From positions 1 through 20,328 of the IMG/VR virus record IMGVR_UViG_3300018080_000690: a stretch of 20,328 bases of DNA; one strand, given 5' to 3'. This document shows, one piece after another, positions 6,470-20,328 of this stretch. Position 1 is the first letter of the stretch. The number at the start of each line of letters is the position of its first letter. The position numbers and the translations under genes were made by a program. The stretch is from a virus. The notes beneath the pieces were generated by a model. The model saw nothing but the letters and a program-made list of their open reading frames with translations, did not search any database and was not told the origin of the DNA.

Positions 6470-8706
6470 CAGTTGATCCCTGCCCTTCGGATATGCCGTT
6501 TATTGACCTCCCGGATATTCCACTCTAAAAATTCGTGTTCCTGAAACTCCGGCGAAGCCACGACTTCCACATAGACATCAATCTGGGTCTGTTCCTGTCC
6601 GGCAGGAGTGATCTTGATATGTTCGTCCGGGTGAAATCGAAGTATGCCTTCCTGCTGAGCGATAAAATCCATGCCATACTGGGCAGAAGGAACAGCTGTT
6701 GAAAACACCCCTTTGAGAAAATTCAAAACCCCACCAATGATGCCACCACCTCCAAACGCCGCTAAGAGTTTTTCAATGGCTACAATCGTCGCCTTGAGTA
6801 CCAACGCACGGGTCACCATAGCCATCAAATATCGTCCGGCATTTTCAAAGGCGTCCTCCAGTTTTTCACCATACCACACGCATTCTGCCAGGGCTGAGGC
6901 AAACGGATCAATTGCGAACTGGAGGGCATATAAGTCTTCCCGGGTAAGCCAGACATTTTCTTTGAGCTGTTCGACCTGTTTTTCCGTCTCCCGGAATTTC
7001 CCGGTCATGATATCAGCTGCCGTACCAAACACATCTTTGGTAGTCATTCCCAGATCACGGACATCCACAGCCATCCGGAGATAGGCTCGGTGAATCTCCT
7101 GTTCTGCCTGTCTGGTCTGTTCCCGAATATCCCTGGTATTCTGTTGCAGCTGCTTGCCTGTATCTTTTCCAATAGTGATGGGAGGCAAACCCGGCATCGG
7201 TGGGATTTTTTCAATACCCAGAGCTTTAAATAACTGTTCTGCCTGCTCTGTACTGAGTTGCAGGGCTTCTTTGAGTTTGGTGAGCTCCTCAACCGTGACC
7301 TTTTTGCCTTTGCTGGCTCGCTCAAGTGCCGCTTCAAATAATTCTTGCTGCTTTTTCGCCGCTTCGGTTGCGGCGATATAGACAGCTCCAAGCCCCAGAG
7401 AGAGTCCGGTGAGTGCCGCAGACAGGGGATTAAGGGCTGCAACAAGTGCCACCAGTTTGATAACAATCGCCTCAATGGTTCCGACCACGAACAGCTTCCC
7501 CAGGATATCACCGTGTTTTTCCAGAAATCCGGCAATCTTCCCGATCCCGGCTGCTACCGTTCCAACCCAGACATCAATCTTCGTCTCGATGAGATCCTGA
7601 TTGGTCTGGACCCAGCTATTGAAACCTCTCAAGACATCACTTAATACCGGCAATAGGACATTCCCGATTTCAATCCCGATACTTTTCAGAGTCGAAAGTG
7701 TCTGCTGGAACTTGAATCCGGGAGTGGCAGCGACCCGTTCAAATCCTTCCCCTAATAGATCGGTGGAATTGGCAATACTTCTCGCAATCCGGACATACTC
7801 ATTTCCCTGAACTCCGGCTGTCCCCAGGACGGTTGCCAGCGCCCGGACATTCGGAATCATATTGCCGAGGGCTTCCTCATTGCCCTCAGTCAGCCGAATC
7901 AGATCGATTAAGGTCTGTGCCAGCCCTCGTTCCCGAACCGACCGCCGGACTTCTTCAATGGAGGTTCCGAGAGCCTTGAATTGTTTTTTAGCCTCAGGAG
8001 TGGCTTTAATCAGCGCATTCAGAATGCCCCGCAATCCGGTGACCGCTTCCTCAGCATTGACTCCCAACCGGGTAAAGGTGGCAATAGAGGCCCCAACCTC
8101 CGCAAACGAGATATCCATCTGGGCTGCCAGTCCGATCACCCGACCTAACACCGGAGCCAGGGAAGACGCCTCCAGATTCCCCTCCCGGACGGTGGCAATG
8201 AGCTGATTCACAGCCTTCGACGCATTCATATGCTCCGCGCCGTATGCCTGCACAATGGAGGTCACCGACCGGGCAATCTCTCCGGTCTGTCCCAGTCCAA
8301 TCGCCGCTGCTTTTGCCGATTGTTCCAGGACCTGCAGCGACTCGGCTCCTCGGAGTCCGGCACTGTTCACCACAAACAGGGCATCAGCCAGTTCTTTGGG
8401 AGCTCGAGCGGTTTCCCGGGACAGTGCCAGGACATCTGACCGCATACCCTGCACCTGTTCCCGACTTAACCCGACCAGTGTCTCAATCCGGGTCATGGAG
8501 GTATCGAAATCGGCAGCCAGCTTCACCGACATTGCCCCGATAGCTACAATAGCCACGGCAGTCAGCTTGGCAATCCGGTTCACAATCCGCTGGGTTCGGC
8601 GTACAAACTCCCGGGACCGGGCTTCACCACGGGCAAACCCCCGGACCAACCCGGTCTGATCGGTCGTTAATCGTAATACGGCTTCACCAAGATTCTCGTG
8701 TGCCAT
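6469..8706 (-). CDS. Tail tape measure protein, TP901 family
   Basis: This 745-residue protein sets tail length and is ejected with DNA. The TP901 core covers about residues 65-385: FDTSMTRIETLVGLSREQV, then LADALFVVNSAGLRG, AAAIGLGQTGEIA and ASIATFTRLGVNAEEAV are typical. Long helices flank it, and hydrophobic segments (around residues 400-450, such as AIVIKLVALVAALNPLSAAL) could form the membrane-crossing part. The C-terminus has Gly-rich and Phe-rich stretches (GGGGIIGGVLNFLKGVF). No lysozyme or peptidase motif was seen. The length suggests a fairly short siphovirus tail, roughly 0.1 micrometre by the usual residue-to-length rule. The stop overlaps the next ATG (TGATG). Confidence 0.93.
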   Translation of the reverse strand: MAHENLGEAVLRLTTDQTGLVRGFARGEARSREFVRRTQRIVNRIAKLTAVAIVAIGAMSVKLAADFDTSMTRIETLVGLSREQVQGMRSDVLALSRETARAPKELADALFVVNSAGLRGAESLQVLEQSAKAAAIGLGQTGEIARSVTSIVQAYGAEHMNASKAVNQLIATVREGNLEASSLAPVLGRVIGLAAQMDISFAEVGASIATFTRLGVNAEEAVTGLRGILNALIKATPEAKKQFKALGTSIEEVRRSVRERGLAQTLIDLIRLTEGNEEALGNMIPNVRALATVLGTAGVQGNEYVRIARSIANSTDLLGEGFERVAATPGFKFQQTLSTLKSIGIEIGNVLLPVLSDVLRGFNSWVQTNQDLIETKIDVWVGTVAAGIGKIAGFLEKHGDILGKLFVVGTIEAIVIKLVALVAALNPLSAALTGLSLGLGAVYIAATEAAKKQQELFEAALERASKGKKVTVEELTKLKEALQLSTEQAEQLFKALGIEKIPPMPGLPPITIGKDTGKQLQQNTRDIREQTRQAEQEIHRAYLRMAVDVRDLGMTTKDVFGTAADIMTGKFRETEKQVEQLKENVWLTREDLYALQFAIDPFASALAECVWYGEKLEDAFENAGRYLMAMVTRALVLKATIVAIEKLLAAFGGGGIIGGVLNFLKGVFSTAVPSAQYGMDFIAQQEGILRFHPDEHIKITPAGQEQTQIDVYVEVVASPEFQEHEFLEWNIREVNKRHIRRAGIN

Positions 8707-8707
8707 C

Positions 8708-9019
8708 TCAACTCACATGCCGGACAGGAATTCCCAACAAGGCGACCTGTCCTTCATACTCCTGTTTGGATTGTGATCGAAGTGTTCGTTGTCCGGCATC
8801 CCGTAAAAGCAAATGGGTTTGTCTCCATCGTTCCTCTTTTCGTATGGTTCCCGCGCCTAATGCAATATTCCGAACCTGCCAGAGTGCCTCTCGTGCTTGA
8901 ACCCTGGGGAGTTCGGTGATATACAGTTCCAGCATCCAGGACTCCATATGAAACCACCGTTCCGGGTCTCCACCATAAAACCGCTGCAGATACGGGATAA
9001 ATGCGAACACCTCATCCAT
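8708..9019 (-). CDS. Tail-module protein before the tape measure, possible second chaperone
   Basis: This 103-residue, Trp/Arg-rich helical protein (FIPYLQRFYGGDPERWFHME, then VQAREALWQVRNIALGAGT) lies immediately before the tape-measure gene, where a second tail assembly chaperone is commonly encoded. I see no firm family signature, so this is a positional inference. The start at 9019 lies a few bases before the DUF5675 stop, with GGAG about ten bases upstream; the frame is open to an earlier ATG at 9052. The stop is one base before the tape-measure ATG. Confidence 0.65.
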   Translation of the reverse strand: MDEVFAFIPYLQRFYGGDPERWFHMESWMLELYITELPRVQAREALWQVRNIALGAGTIRKEERWRQTHLLLRDAGQRTLRSQSKQEYEGQVALLGIPVRHVS

Positions 9020-9410
9020 AATCCAGAATCTCCAGCATAAAGGATTCAACATTATCGATCCGGTTCATAAACTCATTAAACCCTTCCTTGCTGTGCCAGA
9101 CCGCATAATTGTTTTGCAGATGCTCAAACCGCTCTGCCACCAGGATACATCCCTCGGTATCCCGAATACTGTTGCCGAGATGGAAATAAATCCCTGTCCG
9201 CCCGGGGACATCCTGTACCAGATAGGTGTCATATTTATTTTTATAGCGAGCCAGAGTACAGAAATAGCGACCGGGCGGGATACAGGAGATATTCTGTTTG
9301 TTGCCCCGCCAGATTTCTTCAGCAGTGACCGCAAACGGTTCCCCGTCCTGCAACAGCACTCCAAACGTTCCCTGAGCGGTATAGGCAATCCGCTTCAGCT
9401 GTATCAACAT
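9012..9410 (-). CDS. DUF5675 family protein
   Basis: This 132-residue protein matches DUF5675: GTFGVLLQDGEPFAVTAEE, then NISCIPPGRYFC, VPGRTGIYFHLGN and DTEGCILV. The 'H--N ... GCI' signature (His77, Asn80, Cys88) is loosely like the His/Cys active site of YkuD L,D-transpeptidases. A peptidoglycan-related reaction is therefore possible but unproven. The family has no established function. The frame can begin one codon earlier at a GTG; the ATG at 9410 was preferred although the SD (AAGG) is very close to it. Neighbours are two membrane proteins upstream and a tail gene downstream, whose start lies inside its last codons. Confidence 0.82.
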   Translation of the reverse strand: MLIQLKRIAYTAQGTFGVLLQDGEPFAVTAEEIWRGNKQNISCIPPGRYFCTLARYKNKYDTYLVQDVPGRTGIYFHLGNSIRDTEGCILVAERFEHLQNNYAVWHSKEGFNEFMNRIDNVESFMLEILDYG

Positions 9411-14042: not shown

Positions 14043-15293
14043 TTAGATTCCAGTCACCGTGCAAAAGGCCTGGGGTCGATACACAAGAAATGCCGACCGC
14101 AAATCTGCCCGTACTGCCTGTTTCCCGTTGATGAAATAATCCGAATGGGCATTGGTGATCTGCATATCGATCCCTCGCCGGTTCGCCAGCTCCGAGAAAT
14201 TCTGGAAGTCGCCCACCAGTCCTGTATTCTCGGTTTCGGCATCCGACTGGGTTACTGCCAGACCCCAGATCCGCTCGGGTCCCGGATCTGCCGGAGATCC
14301 CCAGATATAAATCCCGTCCGCCGTCTTCAGTAACCGGATTCCCTGCCAGTCATTGGGATGGAGGATCGTTGCACCGGGCATCGCCCGACCGGTCACCCTG
14401 ATTTTTGTCATGGCTTTATAGATCGCATCCGGGACCGGATCTTCACCAGCAGCCAGGGTCTGAATATTCGCGGTATTCAGTATGCCAGTCAGATTCGAGC
14501 CGGTTCCATCACCGGTCAGGATCTGTCCGTCCAGCCGCTGCTGTAACATGAATCGCAGCCGGTTGTCCAGATAGGTTCGTACCCGTGGCTCATCTTCCAC
14601 CTGTTCATCCGTCACCGGAATCCAGACCGCCACCTTTTTCACTGGACTGGACTTTTCTTCCAGCTTCAATGCACCTTCAGGATAGGTTCCGCCTTCCGCT
14701 GTCTCTGCCGCTGCATTGGTGAATACGGTTTCTTCCATATACACGATAGCGTTCTGCGTGGTGGTCGTTTGCGGAATGAGATCCGTCACCTGGATCGGTC
14801 GGGTCGGATACTCCACAATCCGTCCGGTCCGGGTGGTCTCTGGCGGCCAACCCGCCGTGGTCTGGAAAAGCGTCTTGAGTTCAATATCTATTGTCGCCTG
14901 TGGTCCTTGTCCGCCACCTTTGTACTCGGTAAACGCCTCCGATTCCGTAAACATCGTCCCGATAGATTTCTGCTGCGGTCCGGCTGGTGGATGCGGGATC
15001 TGCCCGTTGCCGTTTCCAGCGGGTTCATCCAACTGCTGATGAACCTTTTCCAGATTCTTTTCGGTCTCCGCTGCTTTGACCAGATCCTCGATCTCCTTGG
15101 AGAGATCGGTCATTTCCTGATTCATGTTGGCAACCTTTTCCGCCCGGGCTTTGGAATCACCTTCCAGCATATCCGCCTGGCTCAGATCCAGCTCGCCCTC
15201 ATCCGTCTTGGCAGCCTCAAAAATCTCATGGAGATCTTTGCGGAGTTGCTCCAGCTTGCCGCGTTTTTCCTTTAGTTTTTCTTTGAGTGTCAT
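14043..15293 (-). CDS. Major capsid protein, HK97 fold, with N-terminal delta domain
   Basis: This is the main shell protein of the icosahedral head. Residues 1 to about 90 are strongly helical and charged (KEKLKEKRGKLEQLRKDL and on), the delta or scaffolding domain that the prohead protease normally removes. A Pro/Gly/Asn linker (about 90-108) leads to KSIGTMFTESEAF, a typical start of the mature HK97 fold. Later segments such as AVWIPVTDEQVED and LDGQILTGDGTG are characteristic of this family. The 416-residue length is usual. An SD (GGAG, seven bases before the ATG) lies inside the end of the protease gene and the two genes share four bases. A stable hairpin follows the stop. The cleavage site near residue 108 is inferred, not shown. 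Confidence 0.95.
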   Translation of the reverse strand: MTLKEKLKEKRGKLEQLRKDLHEIFEAAKTDEGELDLSQADMLEGDSKARAEKVANMNQEMTDLSKEIEDLVKAAETEKNLEKVHQQLDEPAGNGNGQIPHPPAGPQQKSIGTMFTESEAFTEYKGGGQGPQATIDIELKTLFQTTAGWPPETTRTGRIVEYPTRPIQVTDLIPQTTTTQNAIVYMEETVFTNAAAETAEGGTYPEGALKLEEKSSPVKKVAVWIPVTDEQVEDEPRVRTYLDNRLRFMLQQRLDGQILTGDGTGSNLTGILNTANIQTLAAGEDPVPDAIYKAMTKIRVTGRAMPGATILHPNDWQGIRLLKTADGIYIWGSPADPGPERIWGLAVTQSDAETENTGLVGDFQNFSELANRRGIDMQITNAHSDYFINGKQAVRADLRSAFLVYRPQAFCTVTGI

Positions 15294-16456
15294 ATTTGTA
15301 CTCCATGTAATTGTGCTTGAATTTGTTGATACTGGAGATAGAGCTGTTTCGGATCGTACTCCTTTCCTTCGTCCTTCATCACCAGCATCTCGGTAATCTG
15401 TTGTTCCAATGCACTGAGCTGCGTCTGAAACTGCGTTAACCGATTCAGATGTGCCTCACTCAGTGTCCGGTTATCTTCCGCACGCAAGTCCGCAAGCGAC
15501 TTCGTCCGGTCGACAAAGGCAGAGACCTCGGCAAGCAAGATGTCTCCTTCATCGGTATAACTGAGATTCGACCGCTCCCCGACACTCCGAAAGTCCGGGG
15601 GGTCTTTCTCAAATTGTGCATAATGTTTTTTCAGATGATTATAGACCGACCGCCGATCACTGTCCGGGATATCCACACCGCCACGAGCTCCCAATAAAGC
15701 ACCCATCGCCGCCGCCACACCCCGCCAGATCACGGAAAATGTGCCGTCAATGATATCATGGTGGGGGAGCTTATACGCTCCGAAACTCTCTGCATCCTCT
15801 CGGTCATACCAGGTAAAACCCCGCCGATATTTCGACCAGGTAATGGTCTCCTTGTCACCCGATCCATCCGAGGACGCCCACTTGCGGAGTCGGTTGACGG
15901 CGGCGGTCGCATCCCAGGATCGCTCGTCCGGGGCAGGGGAGGAGGCTTCATACGAGACGGTCGATTTTGCTCCCTTGATATCAACCGTTTCCGTCTCAAT
16001 CCCCGCTCCCAGCAGTACCGGAGCCACTTCATGGACCTCCACGCCGTACGATCCATCCTCTCGAGGTTGTAAAAACCTCACTTCCTGTTCCTCAAATTCT
16101 CCGGATTCCGATCCGCCCGGCAGAATGTCAAACCCGTAACTCCATTGCTGTAATTCTCTTGAGCCTTTGACAGAGAAATACGTTTCCCGTGCGCTCTCCA
16201 TATCCATATAGAACTGTCCTGCCACCAACGCTTTCTCATCATCGGAATCAATAGTCCCGCGTCCAATCACCGGTTTATCATGCCAGGACGTATGCCCCCA
16301 CGCCCCGATTCTGACAGGAGCATCCTTTTGAAATGCCCCCGGTTTGGTTACGTCTCCATCACTATCAATAACATTGAACCGGGAAAAAATTGCCGTGAAT
16401 TGTCCCGTCTTATCATCAAAATCTTTGAGTTTGAATTGAACTGTTTTGTGTTCCAT
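15290..16456 (-). CDS. Prohead maturation protease with C-terminal extension and coiled coil
   Basis: This is a caudoviral prohead serine protease (HK97 gp4-like, U35), which cleaves the capsid scaffold domain during head maturation. In the first 160 residues the likely catalytic positions are His55 in AWGHTSWH (His59 is an alternative), Ser106 in WSYGF, and the VHEVAPVLLGAG segment at 141-152. It is 388 residues, far longer than a minimal protease. Residues about 179-290 contain KYRRGFTWYD, AYKLPHHDIIDG and GARGGVDIP, a conserved domain seen on some phage head proteases. Residues about 310-388 are Gln/Leu/Glu-rich and probably coiled coil, possibly scaffold-like. The start was set at 16456, with a GGAG SD five bases upstream; an in-frame codon at 16483 lies inside the terminator hairpin. 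The stop overlaps the capsid ATG (ATGA). Confidence 0.9.
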   Translation of the reverse strand: MEHKTVQFKLKDFDDKTGQFTAIFSRFNVIDSDGDVTKPGAFQKDAPVRIGAWGHTSWHDKPVIGRGTIDSDDEKALVAGQFYMDMESARETYFSVKGSRELQQWSYGFDILPGGSESGEFEEQEVRFLQPREDGSYGVEVHEVAPVLLGAGIETETVDIKGAKSTVSYEASSPAPDERSWDATAAVNRLRKWASSDGSGDKETITWSKYRRGFTWYDREDAESFGAYKLPHHDIIDGTFSVIWRGVAAAMGALLGARGGVDIPDSDRRSVYNHLKKHYAQFEKDPPDFRSVGERSNLSYTDEGDILLAEVSAFVDRTKSLADLRAEDNRTLSEAHLNRLTQFQTQLSALEQQITEMLVMKDEGKEYDPKQLYLQYQQIQAQLHGVQI

Positions 16457-16465
16457 AACGACTCC

Positions 16466-16521
16466 AAAAAAAAAGCCCGGCACAGTGCCGGGGGATGATT
16501 CCCTCGTACACTATGCCGGGC
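16466..16521 (-). terminator. Strong intrinsic-terminator-like hairpin upstream of the prohead protease gene
   Basis: On the minus strand, GCCCGGCATAGTGT pairs with GCACTGTGCCGGGC (two G-U wobbles, otherwise complementary, about 14 bp). The inner part can form a small GGGA/TCCC stem. Nine T residues follow immediately, then GGAG-TCGTT-ATG, the SD and start of the protease gene. A GC-rich stem followed by T9 is the classic rho-independent terminator. There is no room for a promoter between the T-tract and the start codon, so downstream expression needs read-through, antitermination or RNA processing. The 3' arm can also fold on itself (CCCGGC/GCCGGG), giving an alternative structure. Confidence 0.8.
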
Positions 16522-16546
16522 CAATGGGTTTTTGGTCACCGGTACC

Positions 16547-16565
16547 CTGTCGGGTATGCCGACAG
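16547..16565 (-). other. RNA hairpin just after the 58-residue gene
   Basis: A perfect 7-bp inverted repeat (CTGTCGG / CCGACAG) with a 5-base loop lies 8 bases after the TAA of the upstream gene. No T-tract follows on either strand, so it is not a standard intrinsic terminator. It could protect the mRNA 3' end or be a processing site next to the stronger hairpin downstream. Confidence 0.5.
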
Positions 16566-16573
16566 CGCAGGTA

Positions 16574-16750
16574 TTATTTCTGTGATGCCATTAAATCATA
16601 CGCAGAATACGTCTCTTTCCAGGTCGTCTCTGCACGTTTAATTTGTCCCTCTTTTACATGCAGTATAACGGTTCCGGTGAGGTGTTGGCAAGTAATTTTT
16701 TCCTTTAATGCCAGCAGGATCTTTTCGGTATTTTCTCCCGTCTTTGTCAT
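16574..16750 (-). CDS. Small YezD/DUF2292-like protein, 58 residues
   Basis: A 58-residue frame starts at an ATG overlapping the portal stop (ATGA) and ends in TAA. It has the layout of YezD-like (DUF2292) proteins: an N-terminal helix (EKILLALKEKI), then a strand-rich TVILHVKEGQIKRAE segment resembling the 'V-I-x-DG-x-I' core of that family. YezD proteins are small and of unknown role; phage copies are known near portal or head genes. Coupling to the portal argues that it is a real late gene. Directly after it come two RNA hairpins, so it is probably the last gene of the packaging segment. The family call is tentative because the protein is so short. Confidence 0.7.
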   Translation of the reverse strand: MTKTGENTEKILLALKEKITCQHLTGTVILHVKEGQIKRAETTWKETYSAYDLMASQK

Positions 16751-18840
16751 TCGACAGCTTCCATCTGCGGGGTGATCCCATACGGGGCGAAATCCATCGT
16801 GCCATTCGGATGTTCGATTGCCATATACTCCTCTGCTTCCTCAAAGCTGATAATCAATCCATCCCGAGCCTGACAGACCTCACAGGAAGTCGCAATCCTG
16901 CCATCAAACAGCATCACCGTCTGAATGACACCCGATTCCTTATATGCCATCAACGAAGATTTCCGTTGAGCATGTTTGACTTCAGTCCGGGCGATCACCT
17001 GCGCCCGGATTTCCGACGTAGACCACGGTCCCGCCGGCACCTCATTCCGAATGCGCCGGACAATTGCCGGAATTCCTTCCCCGGCTTCCCGAGCCTCCGC
17101 AATCACCGAAAATAATTTGTCTTTGGTATCCTGGGTCAAATCCAGCAACCCCAACCGGCGTCCCCCTTCCTTCAGAATCTCCTTCGCCACCATATCCGGC
17201 ATCTCAAAACTCAACCCAAGCGTGTTCTGCACCGAGTCAATAGTCGTGGTCAGGATATGGAGATACTCTTTCTCATAGGTCGGTTTCAGCCGCTTTTCCA
17301 TCCAATCCTCGACATCGAATTTCTTCAGGATTTCAAAGACCGTCCGCTCGATCTCCTCCCGGGCTAATCCCGGCAATGCCGCAGCCGTCGCACTTACCTC
17401 TTTCCCCAAATCATGAAAATCCCGGGTGAGCCGTTCCTCAAACCCTGCCTGTAACCGTTTCCGATCCCGATCCAGCGCCTCAATCATATTATCGATCAAC
17501 TCGGTGGGGAGATGCCCTTCCTCATCCGCCTTCCAGTGGATTTGTCCGTTCGTTTTTCGCCCGTTTCGACCCGGAACCAACGCCGAAGATTTTCCTCCAG
17601 ACGGGACTTCAGTCACCGTGAGTTTCTGGAGGTAGATATTATCTGCCTCGGTACTCTGCCGTCCCAGAGTCTCCCGACCCTCCGCCCGGGTAATCAGCCC
17701 ACCTTGATATTCCTCCACCGTCCGCTTCGACCGGTCATTCATGTCATCTTGCAACACCCGGACTTCCCGGATATCAAACCCGACCCGGTACCGGTCCAGC
17801 TGGGTGGTCTCTACAAAATCACTGAGCAGCTGGGTTTTCAGATCCTCTCCGAACAGCCGTTGGGTCGGAACAATATTATTTTCATACGCCAGCTCCCGGA
17901 GCTCCTTCATGGTCGCCCCGACCTTGGTCTGTTGCAATCCCGTCCCAAACCCCACCACGGCAGCCGGGATCCCCAACATCGCACAGGTCCGTTCTTCCGA
18001 GAGATTCCGTAGTTTGGAGAGATCCATATCTTTCGCCGAAAACCCGAGCTGTTCAATATCCACCGGGGCGGTAGCGACATACGGTTCTCCCCGGCGATCC
18101 CCGCCAAACTTCTGCATATATTTCTCTTTCATAGCCTCGGCATCCACCTTCATGCCCGCTTCTTTCGGGGACATCACCACGCCGGGGATTCCCAGATTGC
18201 GCAGCATGGCTGCCGAGAAATTCGAGGCCTCCAGATCGGTAAAGACTTCCCGAAGCACCGGATACATCGGGGAGAGACCCTTCCGGGTATTCCGGGGGTC
18301 AATCCCGTACCGGAAATGCACCACATCCTCCGGATCGAGCCTGATGGGTGAACGGTTGCCAGGGGAGTACTCGTAATAATCGATAAAGGCATCACTCCAC
18401 TCCAGCGACTTGGGTTCCATCAGGAAATGCGGACAATACCAGGTTTGTACCACCTTTCCGGCTCGGCTCCGAATCTTAATCCAGTATCCGTTTCCGTCCA
18501 TGGTGAAGGAGATTAACGTGCCCATCCAGAGCAGGGGAGCGGAGTAGAAAGGATTTGGTTTGCGCATTAACGTGAGAAAATCATGCTCCGGTATCTGGGT
18601 ATATTCTCCTTCGGTATCCATCTGTTCCAGTAAAACCGGGGCTTCCGGGAACGTCCGGGCGATCCACAACACCGGGGCCATAATCACCGAAGCCCCGAGT
18701 CCATCCCCAACTTCCTGCTTGTAATTGAATTTTGTCCGGGGGAGATCCCAGGACAGCCAGCCACCCAAGCGGGGAAAAACCATATCCCGCAACGCTTTCA
18801 GTCCCCGAATCGGAGCTGTTAATATCTTTTGAATGTTCAT
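16747..18840 (-). CDS. Portal protein fused to a Mu F-like minor head (head morphogenesis) domain
   Basis: The N-terminal part (about residues 1-430) is an HK97-type portal, which forms the dodecameric ring at the capsid vertex through which DNA passes. Residues such as DVVHFRYGIDPRN and an MLGIPAAVVGF segment are typical of the portal core. The C-terminal part (about 520-697) looks like the phage head morphogenesis (Mu gpF / SPP1 gp7) domain: IARTEVKHAQ at 616-625, CEVCQARDG with C653 and C656, and a late HPNG at 677-680. In most phages these are two adjacent genes; here one 697-residue frame holds both with no internal stop. The middle part (about 430-520) is helical and charged and may be a linker. 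The stop overlaps the next ATG by four bases (ATGA). Confidence 0.92.
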   Translation of the reverse strand: MNIQKILTAPIRGLKALRDMVFPRLGGWLSWDLPRTKFNYKQEVGDGLGASVIMAPVLWIARTFPEAPVLLEQMDTEGEYTQIPEHDFLTLMRKPNPFYSAPLLWMGTLISFTMDGNGYWIKIRSRAGKVVQTWYCPHFLMEPKSLEWSDAFIDYYEYSPGNRSPIRLDPEDVVHFRYGIDPRNTRKGLSPMYPVLREVFTDLEASNFSAAMLRNLGIPGVVMSPKEAGMKVDAEAMKEKYMQKFGGDRRGEPYVATAPVDIEQLGFSAKDMDLSKLRNLSEERTCAMLGIPAAVVGFGTGLQQTKVGATMKELRELAYENNIVPTQRLFGEDLKTQLLSDFVETTQLDRYRVGFDIREVRVLQDDMNDRSKRTVEEYQGGLITRAEGRETLGRQSTEADNIYLQKLTVTEVPSGGKSSALVPGRNGRKTNGQIHWKADEEGHLPTELIDNMIEALDRDRKRLQAGFEERLTRDFHDLGKEVSATAAALPGLAREEIERTVFEILKKFDVEDWMEKRLKPTYEKEYLHILTTTIDSVQNTLGLSFEMPDMVAKEILKEGGRRLGLLDLTQDTKDKLFSVIAEAREAGEGIPAIVRRIRNEVPAGPWSTSEIRAQVIARTEVKHAQRKSSLMAYKESGVIQTVMLFDGRIATSCEVCQARDGLIISFEEAEEYMAIEHPNGTMDFAPYGITPQMEAVE

Positions 18841-18841
18841 A

Positions 18842-20185
18842 TCACACCGCCGTCAGGATCGGTTTCTGCATCCGTTCAACGAATTGTGCCTGGACAAAGG
18901 CATCTCCGTAATCCGTAGACCGTCCGATCCGTTGTTTAATCGATTCTTTGGATTCCACCTTGATGACCTTTTCCTGCCGGATCTCATATCGGGGGGCAGT
19001 GAGATCCTCCAGCAGCAGGGGATACTCCTCGGTAAGCGAGACCTGTCCGGTCCGCAGTTGCTCCCGGGTATGCCACCACATCTGCGACCGGAGGTCGGCA
19101 AATTCATACGTGCTTTCCTTTTGCATCGCATCATTGACCGGCTTGGCTCCGGCACTGATTTCGATCACCTCATATCCCAGGGCGTTCAAGTGATCCACCG
19201 TCCCGGCGCCGAGTCCGACCACATCCACCCCGACCAGATCCGTATCAATCCCATGCTCCTCAATATCCTGTGCCGCATACTGGGCTGACTGAGTGGTATC
19301 GATCCCTTGCCACGCTTTCATCTCTGTCAGGTGGTTCCCCTGTAACCGGCAAAATACTGTCTTATCGTCGCCATACCGGGCAACATCGATCCCCAGTTTC
19401 TGCTTCCCGGCCTTGGGCAGCACAATATCAATCGCCTCCTGAATCCATTCGTATTTAATGAGCTGATCCGGTTCTTCCTCGTAATCCCAGTTCCCATATC
19501 TGAGACGCTCCCGCTGGGCGTTATTCTCAATACTTTCCAACGCTTCTGCCGATCCCCGTTCCCGGTACGGATTATCCGTCACCAGTGAGGGAATAAAGGC
19601 ATAGTCCAGAGGAAGGTTCTCATTTCTCCATGGCTTATAAAAATATTGATACAGCCAGTTCTTTTTCGGGTTGCTCGTAATCAGCATTTTTCTCATTAAC
19701 CCGTACTCATCATTGTTATGCCTGCCGATCCGTCCTTTCAGGGTATCAAAGGCACTGAAATGGACTTCCCCGGCTTCCTCGATCCAGCCTCCGGTATATT
19801 CCAGCGATCCGTACCGGTCATACATCGGATCACTTGGCAGGTATTTGAGATCCAGCAGACTAATCCGGCTCCCGTTCGCAAACAGGAAGTAATAATCCTG
19901 CCCGTTCCATTTCCAGACCGACCTCGGCACTTCATGAAAGCGTAACACCTTGTAAAACGTAACCAGGGTAGACTCCCGCAGTCGTTTAAGTTCATCCCGC
20001 CCGATAAACCACCGGCTTTCAGGATACCGGAGGCACATGAGCAAGAGCCATTCACACCCGAGCCAGGATTTCCCGCCGTTGGCAGCCCCTCCAAACAGGA
20101 GAAACCGGGTGACAGTATCCCGGAGGAGCTGGTACGCCTGATACTGTTTTTGATGCGGCTTGGCATTAATCTGGATCTGGTTCAT
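18842..20185 (-). CDS. terL: Terminase large subunit (ATPase and nuclease)
   Basis: The packaging motor translocates DNA into the prohead with an N-terminal ATPase and cuts concatemers with a C-terminal RNase H-like nuclease. With the start at 20185 the protein has 447 residues. A Walker A motif (GAANGGKS, residues 33-40) and a Walker B-like GGWIEEAGE (about 132-140) mark the ATPase. Nuclease acidic residues are likely D267 in GIDVARYGDD, D321 in VGVDVVGLGAG and D425/D428 in STDYGD. The frame extends upstream to a GTG at 20239 and an ATG at 20233. The 20185 ATG was chosen because homologues usually begin shortly before a KPH-K-Q segment and because it nearly abuts the terS stop. No good SD is visible, which fits coupling to terS. 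The portal gene starts one base after the stop. Confidence 0.95.
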   Translation of the reverse strand: MNQIQINAKPHQKQYQAYQLLRDTVTRFLLFGGAANGGKSWLGCEWLLLMCLRYPESRWFIGRDELKRLRESTLVTFYKVLRFHEVPRSVWKWNGQDYYFLFANGSRISLLDLKYLPSDPMYDRYGSLEYTGGWIEEAGEVHFSAFDTLKGRIGRHNNDEYGLMRKMLITSNPKKNWLYQYFYKPWRNENLPLDYAFIPSLVTDNPYRERGSAEALESIENNAQRERLRYGNWDYEEEPDQLIKYEWIQEAIDIVLPKAGKQKLGIDVARYGDDKTVFCRLQGNHLTEMKAWQGIDTTQSAQYAAQDIEEHGIDTDLVGVDVVGLGAGTVDHLNALGYEVIEISAGAKPVNDAMQKESTYEFADLRSQMWWHTREQLRTGQVSLTEEYPLLLEDLTAPRYEIRQEKVIKVESKESIKQRIGRSTDYGDAFVQAQFVERMQKPILTAV

Positions 20186-20328
20186 CGTCTGGTTTGATAA
20201 TATTAATTCCCGTGATCTGGATCGGTTCGCCATCTTCACCGGTCAGCTCGCGCCGTTCAGCATAGCCCCGCTCTTTACCTTTTCTCGTCAGATACCATTT
20301 TGCCGTCCCCACCACCTCATTTTTAATA
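20166..20328 (-). CDS. terS: Terminase small subunit, C-terminal part only (cut by window edge)
   Basis: This is an open frame running in from the right edge and ending at a TAA; 54 codons are visible. The small terminase subunit recognises phage DNA and recruits the large subunit for packaging. The visible tail contains WYLTRKGKERGY, then ELTGEDGEPIQI, and ends in an acidic DDEPDPD stretch. A 'W-L ... GY ... E-TG-DG-P' C-terminus is common in phage small terminases of this class. The N-terminal DNA-binding part is outside the window. The stop codon lies about 20 bases inside the large terminase gene, so the two are translationally coupled. The assignment rests on this short tail and on position directly before terL. 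Confidence 0.72.
   Translation of the reverse strand, partial: IKNEVVGTAKWYLTRKGKERGYAERRELTGEDGEPIQITGINIIKPDDEPDPD

Follow-up and report, generated by a model that had tools for sequence, protein, structure and literature searches.

A predicted intrinsic terminator flush with the head protease gene of an environmental phage, and promoter–terminator elements before head genes in other viral contigs

Head genes and the hairpin before the protease gene

The window analysed here, meaning the whole stretch of DNA under study, is the 20,328-base virus record IMGVR_UViG_3300018080_000690, with a G+C content of 51%. Its late genes lie on the minus strand, terminase first, as do the other features of the window described in this section. 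Pfam and PHROGs scans identified a terminase large subunit (18842..20239) followed by a portal protein (16747..18840) with a minor-head/MuF-like C-terminal part, in which Phage_Mu_F scored below the Pfam cut-off and phrog_115 and other families also matched. The portal gene overlaps by ATGA a 58-aa ORF, P0001 (16574..16750), that contains a promoter-like site; no family or homologue of this ORF was found in phages, Pfam, or PHROGs, its best match in the fetched loci was at chance level (E 0.88), and no zinc-ribbon motif was seen in it by eye. A prohead protease (15290..16456), composed of a Peptidase_S78 N-terminal part and an extra C-terminal domain, and a major capsid protein of the Phage_capsid family (14043..15293) come next, and the ORFs past the capsid gene have a tail-side appearance by eye. 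The C-terminal protease domain (window 15398-15961) also occurs in Thermus phage Riverbug, Moorella phage MTATph1, and an archaeal virus, Methanocaldococcus fervens tailed virus 1, with a 43-46% identity confined to that interval.

Directly ahead of the protease gene, folding predicts a hairpin of 20 pairs (16475..16521; -36.0 kcal/mol), with 14 continuous outer pairs, G-U included, followed by 2 + 4 inner pairs. A T9 tract (16466..16474) stands directly 3' of it and runs into the ribosome site (16454..16465), which reads GGAG (16465-16462), TCGTT, and the protease ATG (16456). An earlier note, made from the sequence alone, had placed a terminator with a stem of about 14 bp and T9 at 16466-16521, abutting the protease ribosome site and leaving no room for a promoter after it, and all of this was borne out: the coordinates are exact, the T9 tract passes straight into GGAG, and with 9 bases between T9 and ATG a promoter after the terminator does not fit. 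The corresponding 60-nt fold reaches -38.1 kcal/mol against a dinucleotide-shuffle mean of -17.3 (z -6.9; 0/200 shuffles as stable) and is the lowest among 4054 60-nt segments of the minus strand, where T9 is also the sole run of at least 7 T and the second-best hairpin-with-T candidate reaches -17.5 (tail TTTTATGGTG). A generic terminator consensus scan of both strands returned 23 sites against 19.3 expected, which is not significant, so the terminator claim rests on stem energy and the T-run.

The element has the GC-rich hairpin followed directly by a U-rich tract that marks an intrinsic terminator at the sequence level, and the late genes for protease and capsid lie downstream with no further promoter before them, as in units under Q- or AlpA-type control. 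The hairpin at 16521-16475 is, on sequence grounds, a predicted intrinsic terminator at the end of a short transcription unit, immediately upstream of the protease gene. As is generally known, a long stem so close to a ribosome site may instead be cleaved or shield the 5' end of an mRNA, here that of protease and capsid, with termination not its role; the T9 tract directly behind the stem is an intrinsic-terminator signature, no other such T-run occurs on the strand, and we consider a processing or stability hairpin extremely improbable.

The 3' arm can also fold into a nested 7-bp hairpin (16476..16492; -11.9 kcal/mol) that likewise stands before the T tract, which the earlier note had taken for a possible switch. 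An equilibrium calculation on the 190-nt leader assigns the 14 outer pairs probabilities of 0.90-1.0, except the outermost, at 0.73. When the 5' arm is forced unpaired, the nested hairpin forms with the T tract still directly behind it, and because both folds stand on that tract, both should terminate. The switch idea therefore fails, and the nested hairpin reads as a back-up terminator. A riboswitch or attenuator with alternative folds was likewise rejected, since no terminator-free fold appears when the 5' arm is blocked and no Rfam match was found.

Transcription arriving from the packaging genes, as the earlier note considered it, would face a barrier here; that account was incomplete, in that a promoter-like site about 140 nt upstream was not listed. 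This candidate sigma70 promoter, TTGCCA-18-TATACT (16662..16691), matches the consensus at 10/12 positions, lies inside P0001, and has a predicted start at ~16655, ~135 nt ahead of the terminator hairpin. Its score was reached by 32/1000 shuffles of the 230 nt upstream, and it is one of two 10/12 sites on the minus strand; the whole window holds 23 promoter-like sites against 20.6 expected by chance, with a weaker 9/12 site inside the portal gene at 17139-17112. The candidate is thus better than chance by a modest margin and suggestive of a true promoter, and by virtue of it the unit resembles a promoter, leader, and terminator in series.

The predicted leader carries 5' hairpins upstream of the terminator (16538..16573 by folding; core CTGTCGGCATACCCGACAG). 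A distant DNA search in phages returned no leader homologues, a degenerate pattern of the window hairpin had 0 matches in viral contigs, and Rfam gave no match at gathering score for the leader region. Membership in tfoR, a Vibrio sRNA, was rejected, the match of 23.1 bits lying well below the gathering score (70). The 5' hairpin and terminator architecture, together with this sub-threshold resemblance, would suit a small RNA gene in which promoter and terminator bound a stable trans-acting RNA and the capsid genes are reached by read-through; the lack of an Rfam match at gathering score and of any RNA homologue in these searches counts against it, and we regard it as very unlikely.

Portal–protease junctions in related phages

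Protein scans for related portal, protease, or capsid genes added 269 loci, several of them from the same contigs. Three of these scans contributed their best 80 matches each (of 541, of at least 570, and of 154), and removal of identical protease starts left 186 loci, including the window, Riverbug, and Microcystis phage loci. The portal–protease distance is known for 176 of them, namely the window and 175 relatives from among the matches listed. Portal and protease genes are tightly joined with no gap in 145/175 of these listed relatives, while 30/175, like the window, have a distance above 150 nt. In an earlier, non-deduplicated set of the matches listed, 3/149 tight junctions carried a hairpin and T-run, the strongest at -19.6 (L093). 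Given that 145 of the 175 listed junctions are tight, the terminator is, as far as sequence comparison goes, absent from the ancestral head module, and most of the relatives measured lack the gap, which is thus an insertion by comparison with them. Conservation of the stem pairing in relatives, which the earlier note had named as a check, was not seen: those 145 listed relatives have no gap to hold a stem, and no leader homologue was found.

A hairpin with a T-run (-11 or better) within 260 nt before the protease occurs in 31/186 loci among the matches listed, in 20 of which it lies before the portal stop. The remaining hairpins of -17 or stronger belong to the window, L015, L162 (the same element as in L163), L185, Riverbug (L200), L211, and L093, where the hairpin overlaps the portal stop; those in the weaker -11 to -17 class belong to L002, L014, L227, and L272. 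Separately, a simple hairpin with a T-run lies 31-56 nt past the end of the capsid gene in four loci (L010 4720, L011 4182, L003 6283, and L006 4791). A portal search in plasmids returned distant portals only, in 11 records.

At several of these junctions the hairpin has a promoter in front of it. L163 has the order portal, 64-aa zinc-ribbon-like ORF, promoter, ~80-nt leader, hairpin (-29.5), and protease, and the promoter of L163/L162, TTGACA-16-TATCAT, sits in the end of the zinc-ribbon-like ORF with a score that 0/1000 shuffles reach. L015 repeats this order with TTGACA-18-TACGGT (score reached in 1/1000 shuffles) and a hairpin of -30.8. L185, from a contig in a Chloroflexi bin, has TATACT (score reached in 10/1000 shuffles) followed by a hairpin. 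Each of the three promoters leads into a hairpin that is strong and has a T-rich tail, and a promoter–leader–terminator design, as predicted from sequence, recurs at the portal–protease junction in L162/L163, L015, and L185. The view of the earlier note that the barrier is crossed by antitermination or read-through fits this anatomy and its recurrence at the junction, although its switch component falls away and the upstream promoter had escaped it.

Riverbug offers a partial parallel. Here TATCCT is followed after ~45 nt by the hairpin CCCCCGGGAAGCCCCGGGGG (-18.1) and GTTTTCGTGGACCATG, which ends just ahead of the protease ATG, and the promoter is at chance level (324/1000 shuffles reach its score). 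In the accessible text of the Riverbug paper the word 'terminator' is absent and 'promoter' occurs solely within a reference title (PMC11437467).

In L185 an HNH-like ORF (8094-9149, opposite strand, by eye) lies between two terminator-like hairpins before the protease, placed as if inserted beside or into the promoter–terminator element.

The gap itself bears on a rather unlikely reading, in which an accessory unit, either P0001 or a non-coding RNA, was inserted with its own terminator between portal and protease; the terminator would shield the capsid genes in the prophage, and lytic polymerase would pass it by means of a general antiterminator. Moron cassettes of lambdoid phages are of this kind, being inserted between genes that are adjacent in relatives and closed by a terminator. 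The gap is an insertion by comparison with most relatives (30/175 of those listed exceed 150 nt), and inserted ORFs with a terminator-like hairpin in gapped L023 and L211, as well as the HNH-like ORF seen by eye in L185, argue for such an origin. The window ORF, in contrast, has no promoter before it and is coupled to the portal gene: the promoter-like site lies inside P0001 with none of 10/12 quality upstream of it, the start of the ORF shares ATGA with the portal stop, as is usual for genes within an operon, and the ORF has no known relative.

A box shared by promoter–terminator elements in viral contigs

In both L163 and L015, CAACCGAA occurs 5 nt past the -10 hexamer. A pattern built from these two seeds, TTGACA-N16-18-TAnnnTAG-nnn-CAACCGAA, matched 16 stretches in viral contigs, corresponding to 8 distinct elements of which two are the seeds, and a strong hairpin with a T-rich tail lies behind 8/8 of them. 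A relaxed pattern matched 28 stretches in viral contigs, 13 of them new loci. Four of these (L293, L295, L296, and L297) have a promoter and terminator, and the other nine loci, representing four distinct cases by eye, lack a terminator: in the L292 group (five loci) and the L301 group (two) the box is at the end of an ORF, and L302 is a further match without a terminator. In the last case (L298, reverse complement 4318), the CAACCGAATA box passes without a break into GGAGG and a gene that looks HNH-like by eye, and a terminator is absent.

Since box and spacing are fixed by the construction of the pattern, independent evidence comes from the terminator and the gene context alone. Each of the 12 distinct box elements has, no more than 190 nt from its presumed start, a hairpin whose energy lies between -22.2 and -45.2 kcal/mol, as against 28/480 random same-strand windows of the member loci that pass the same terminator criterion. 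The first T-run filter passed 11/12 members; it was loosened to 4 T in 9 to admit L296, and the loosened form was applied equally to the 480 random windows. With the seeds excluded, a terminator of -22.2 or stronger within 190 nt follows 10/14 distinct new matches. The elements of L274, L275, L276, and L281 look related by descent by eye. By our own estimate, chance would supply ~1 match to the first pattern and ~5 to the relaxed one in viral contigs.

A search of 16 records for TAnnnT-N5-CAACCGAA gave two copies in G418, from which L280 comes, and a single copy in each of the other 15, with 0 hits in a reversed control. TTGACA is present again at the second G418 copy, where a hairpin and a weak T-run can be seen by eye; the four proteins after it gave no family match, in one library each. 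The box pattern was found in 0/9 of the genomes behind the loci, and in 2/400 Chloroflexota genomes by the relaxed pattern (reversed control 0). Both Chloroflexota matches were rejected as box elements and treated as chance or unrelated, L290 having no terminator by eye and L291 having a T-box-like leader. In the latter (725-766), a chromosomal promoter with CAACCGAATA at its presumed start stands before the T-box-like leader and a trpE-like ORF, by eye. Inspection by eye found no general pairing of the box with the terminator loop. It also showed that the stretches between box and hairpin are not alike, a further point against a small RNA gene.

Head genes follow 10/12 of the distinct box elements. 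Pfam and PHROGs together identify a major capsid protein after the box in L275 and L276 and a scaffold in L281; PHROGs alone identifies a head protease in L277, and L278 has a long ORF with a capsid part. A portal follows in L293 and an S49 head protease in L296 (Pfam/PHROGs), genes like the protease and capsid protein of the window lie downstream in L163 and L015, and the next ORF in L274 resembles the L281-type scaffold by eye. Of the other two, the L297 element precedes other ORFs, one of them DNA-methylase-like by eye, with a terminase ~3 kb downstream, and the L295 element is ~570 nt ahead of an amidase (lysin). As judged from these gene calls, the box element stands in front of late genes in more than one kind of head module, which is what a late-gene regulon would look like.

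Several elements also have a zinc-ribbon motif within 600 nt upstream, namely 3/12 box elements (L163, L015, and L293) and L185, where a Com-like zinc-ribbon frame matches PF10122 below the cut-off (E 0.00054). The motif is absent at this distance in Riverbug and occurs in 2/145 tight relatives among the matches listed. Com of Mu is an RNA-binding zinc protein, and these counts are suggestive of a common role for the small upstream zinc-ribbon ORFs. In L296 the ORF before the S49 head protease (1317-2999), probably the portal, ends in a zinc-ribbon-like tail (CHRCG..CKCG), so that the ribbon is the tail of a larger ORF there and a separate small ORF in L163.

In the window, the CAACCGAATA box is absent beside the candidate promoter, and the two copies of CAACCGAA, at 1451 (+) and 7363 (-), are both far from the terminator element; the window is for this reason not filed under the box family. 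We tentatively propose, at a little less than even confidence, that environmental phages with different head modules share a promoter–CAACCGAATA box–leader–terminator control read by a trans-acting factor, and that the window may follow the same logic with a different recognition sequence. A literature search confined to titles and abstract openings, with subscription journals mostly outside its scope, returned no description of a promoter–box–terminator arrangement, and the literature matches listed for the box letters were unrelated by title; papers on Thermus antitermination, morons, and Com supplied background only. The box family is the more novel part of these findings, compared with the terminator gate of the window.

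A possible gate and its likeness to known systems

The anatomy before the protease gene would suit a promoter-proximal gate. A strong terminator flush with the ribosome site, with no later promoter and no comparable terminator on the strand, demands read-through for capsid synthesis. Regulated antitermination is the best supported means, because promoter–leader–terminator units occur at the same junction elsewhere and are known to serve in control of the Q and AlpA type. We therefore propose, at about an even chance of being right, that the window terminator acts as a gate for the capsid and following genes and is opened by antitermination. Polymerase would likely also start at the promoter-like site 16691-16662, for which the evidence is weak, yielding a ~190-nt RNA that ends at T9. 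Unaided, most RNA would stop there, leaving protease, capsid, and following genes at a low level. With a phage antiterminator, loaded at the promoter or earlier, polymerase would pass the terminator late in infection, which would turn on the capsid genes and the genes after them together. Against a gate stand the absence of the element from most of the relatives listed, the modest window promoter and its position inside an ORF, the chance-level total of promoter-like sites in the window, the missing box, the chance-level promoter of Riverbug, and the four of 14 box matches that are terminator-free.

Read-through could also be fixed rather than regulated, with no antiterminator involved and a constant share of portal-operon transcripts setting the dose of protease and capsid. 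The terminator lies within an operon and leaves no space for a later promoter, which is consistent with this, and no extra factor is needed. However, capsid protein is needed far above portal and terminase, and a -36 kcal/mol hairpin with T9 would be expected to lower it; the promoters before such terminators in other phages are also left unexplained. We judge a fixed partial terminator to be quite unlikely.

Among known systems, the proposed antitermination gate most recalls pR'-tR' of lambda, in which a sigma70 promoter, a short leader, and an intrinsic terminator precede the late genes under control of Q. The window unit has the same order of promoter, leader, terminator, and late gene, with the promoter a candidate. 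The lambda gate, in contrast, stands before the lysis genes and not between portal and protease, and in the window the promoter is weak and the gate comes after terminase and portal. Neither a Q gene nor a Q-binding site was seen within this 20-kb piece, which starts the late genes at terminase, and we do not file the window as a Q system.

In phage Mu, the late promoter PI lies before the protease gene I and is activated by C. The head genes of Mu are thus split into two units at the protease, as in the window, although we know of no terminator flush with the ribosome site at PI.

AlpA of Pseudomonas aeruginosa, which is loaded at the alpB and PA0807 promoters, is described as bypassing intrinsic terminators whose beginnings lie 54 and 26 nt downstream of the start sites of these two target promoters (PMC7969949). 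The AlpA system, with a promoter and then a close intrinsic terminator, resembles the window unit and its candidate promoter, and the AlpA element lies between -35 and -10, whereas the CAACCGAATA box of other phages is at the presumed start site. The CAACCGAATA box elements in turn have the window's order of promoter (a candidate in the window), short leader, and strong hairpin with T-run, mostly before head genes, and differ in that the window has no box beside its candidate promoter.

Should the gate prove real, termination and not a separate capsid promoter would set capsid expression in these uncultured phages, and the gate would divide packaging from capsid genes, unlike that of lambda. 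Riverbug, whose host is the laboratory strain Thermus thermophilus HB8, is a culturable phage with the terminator part, and the box common to different head modules is a concrete handle for finding the proposed factor.
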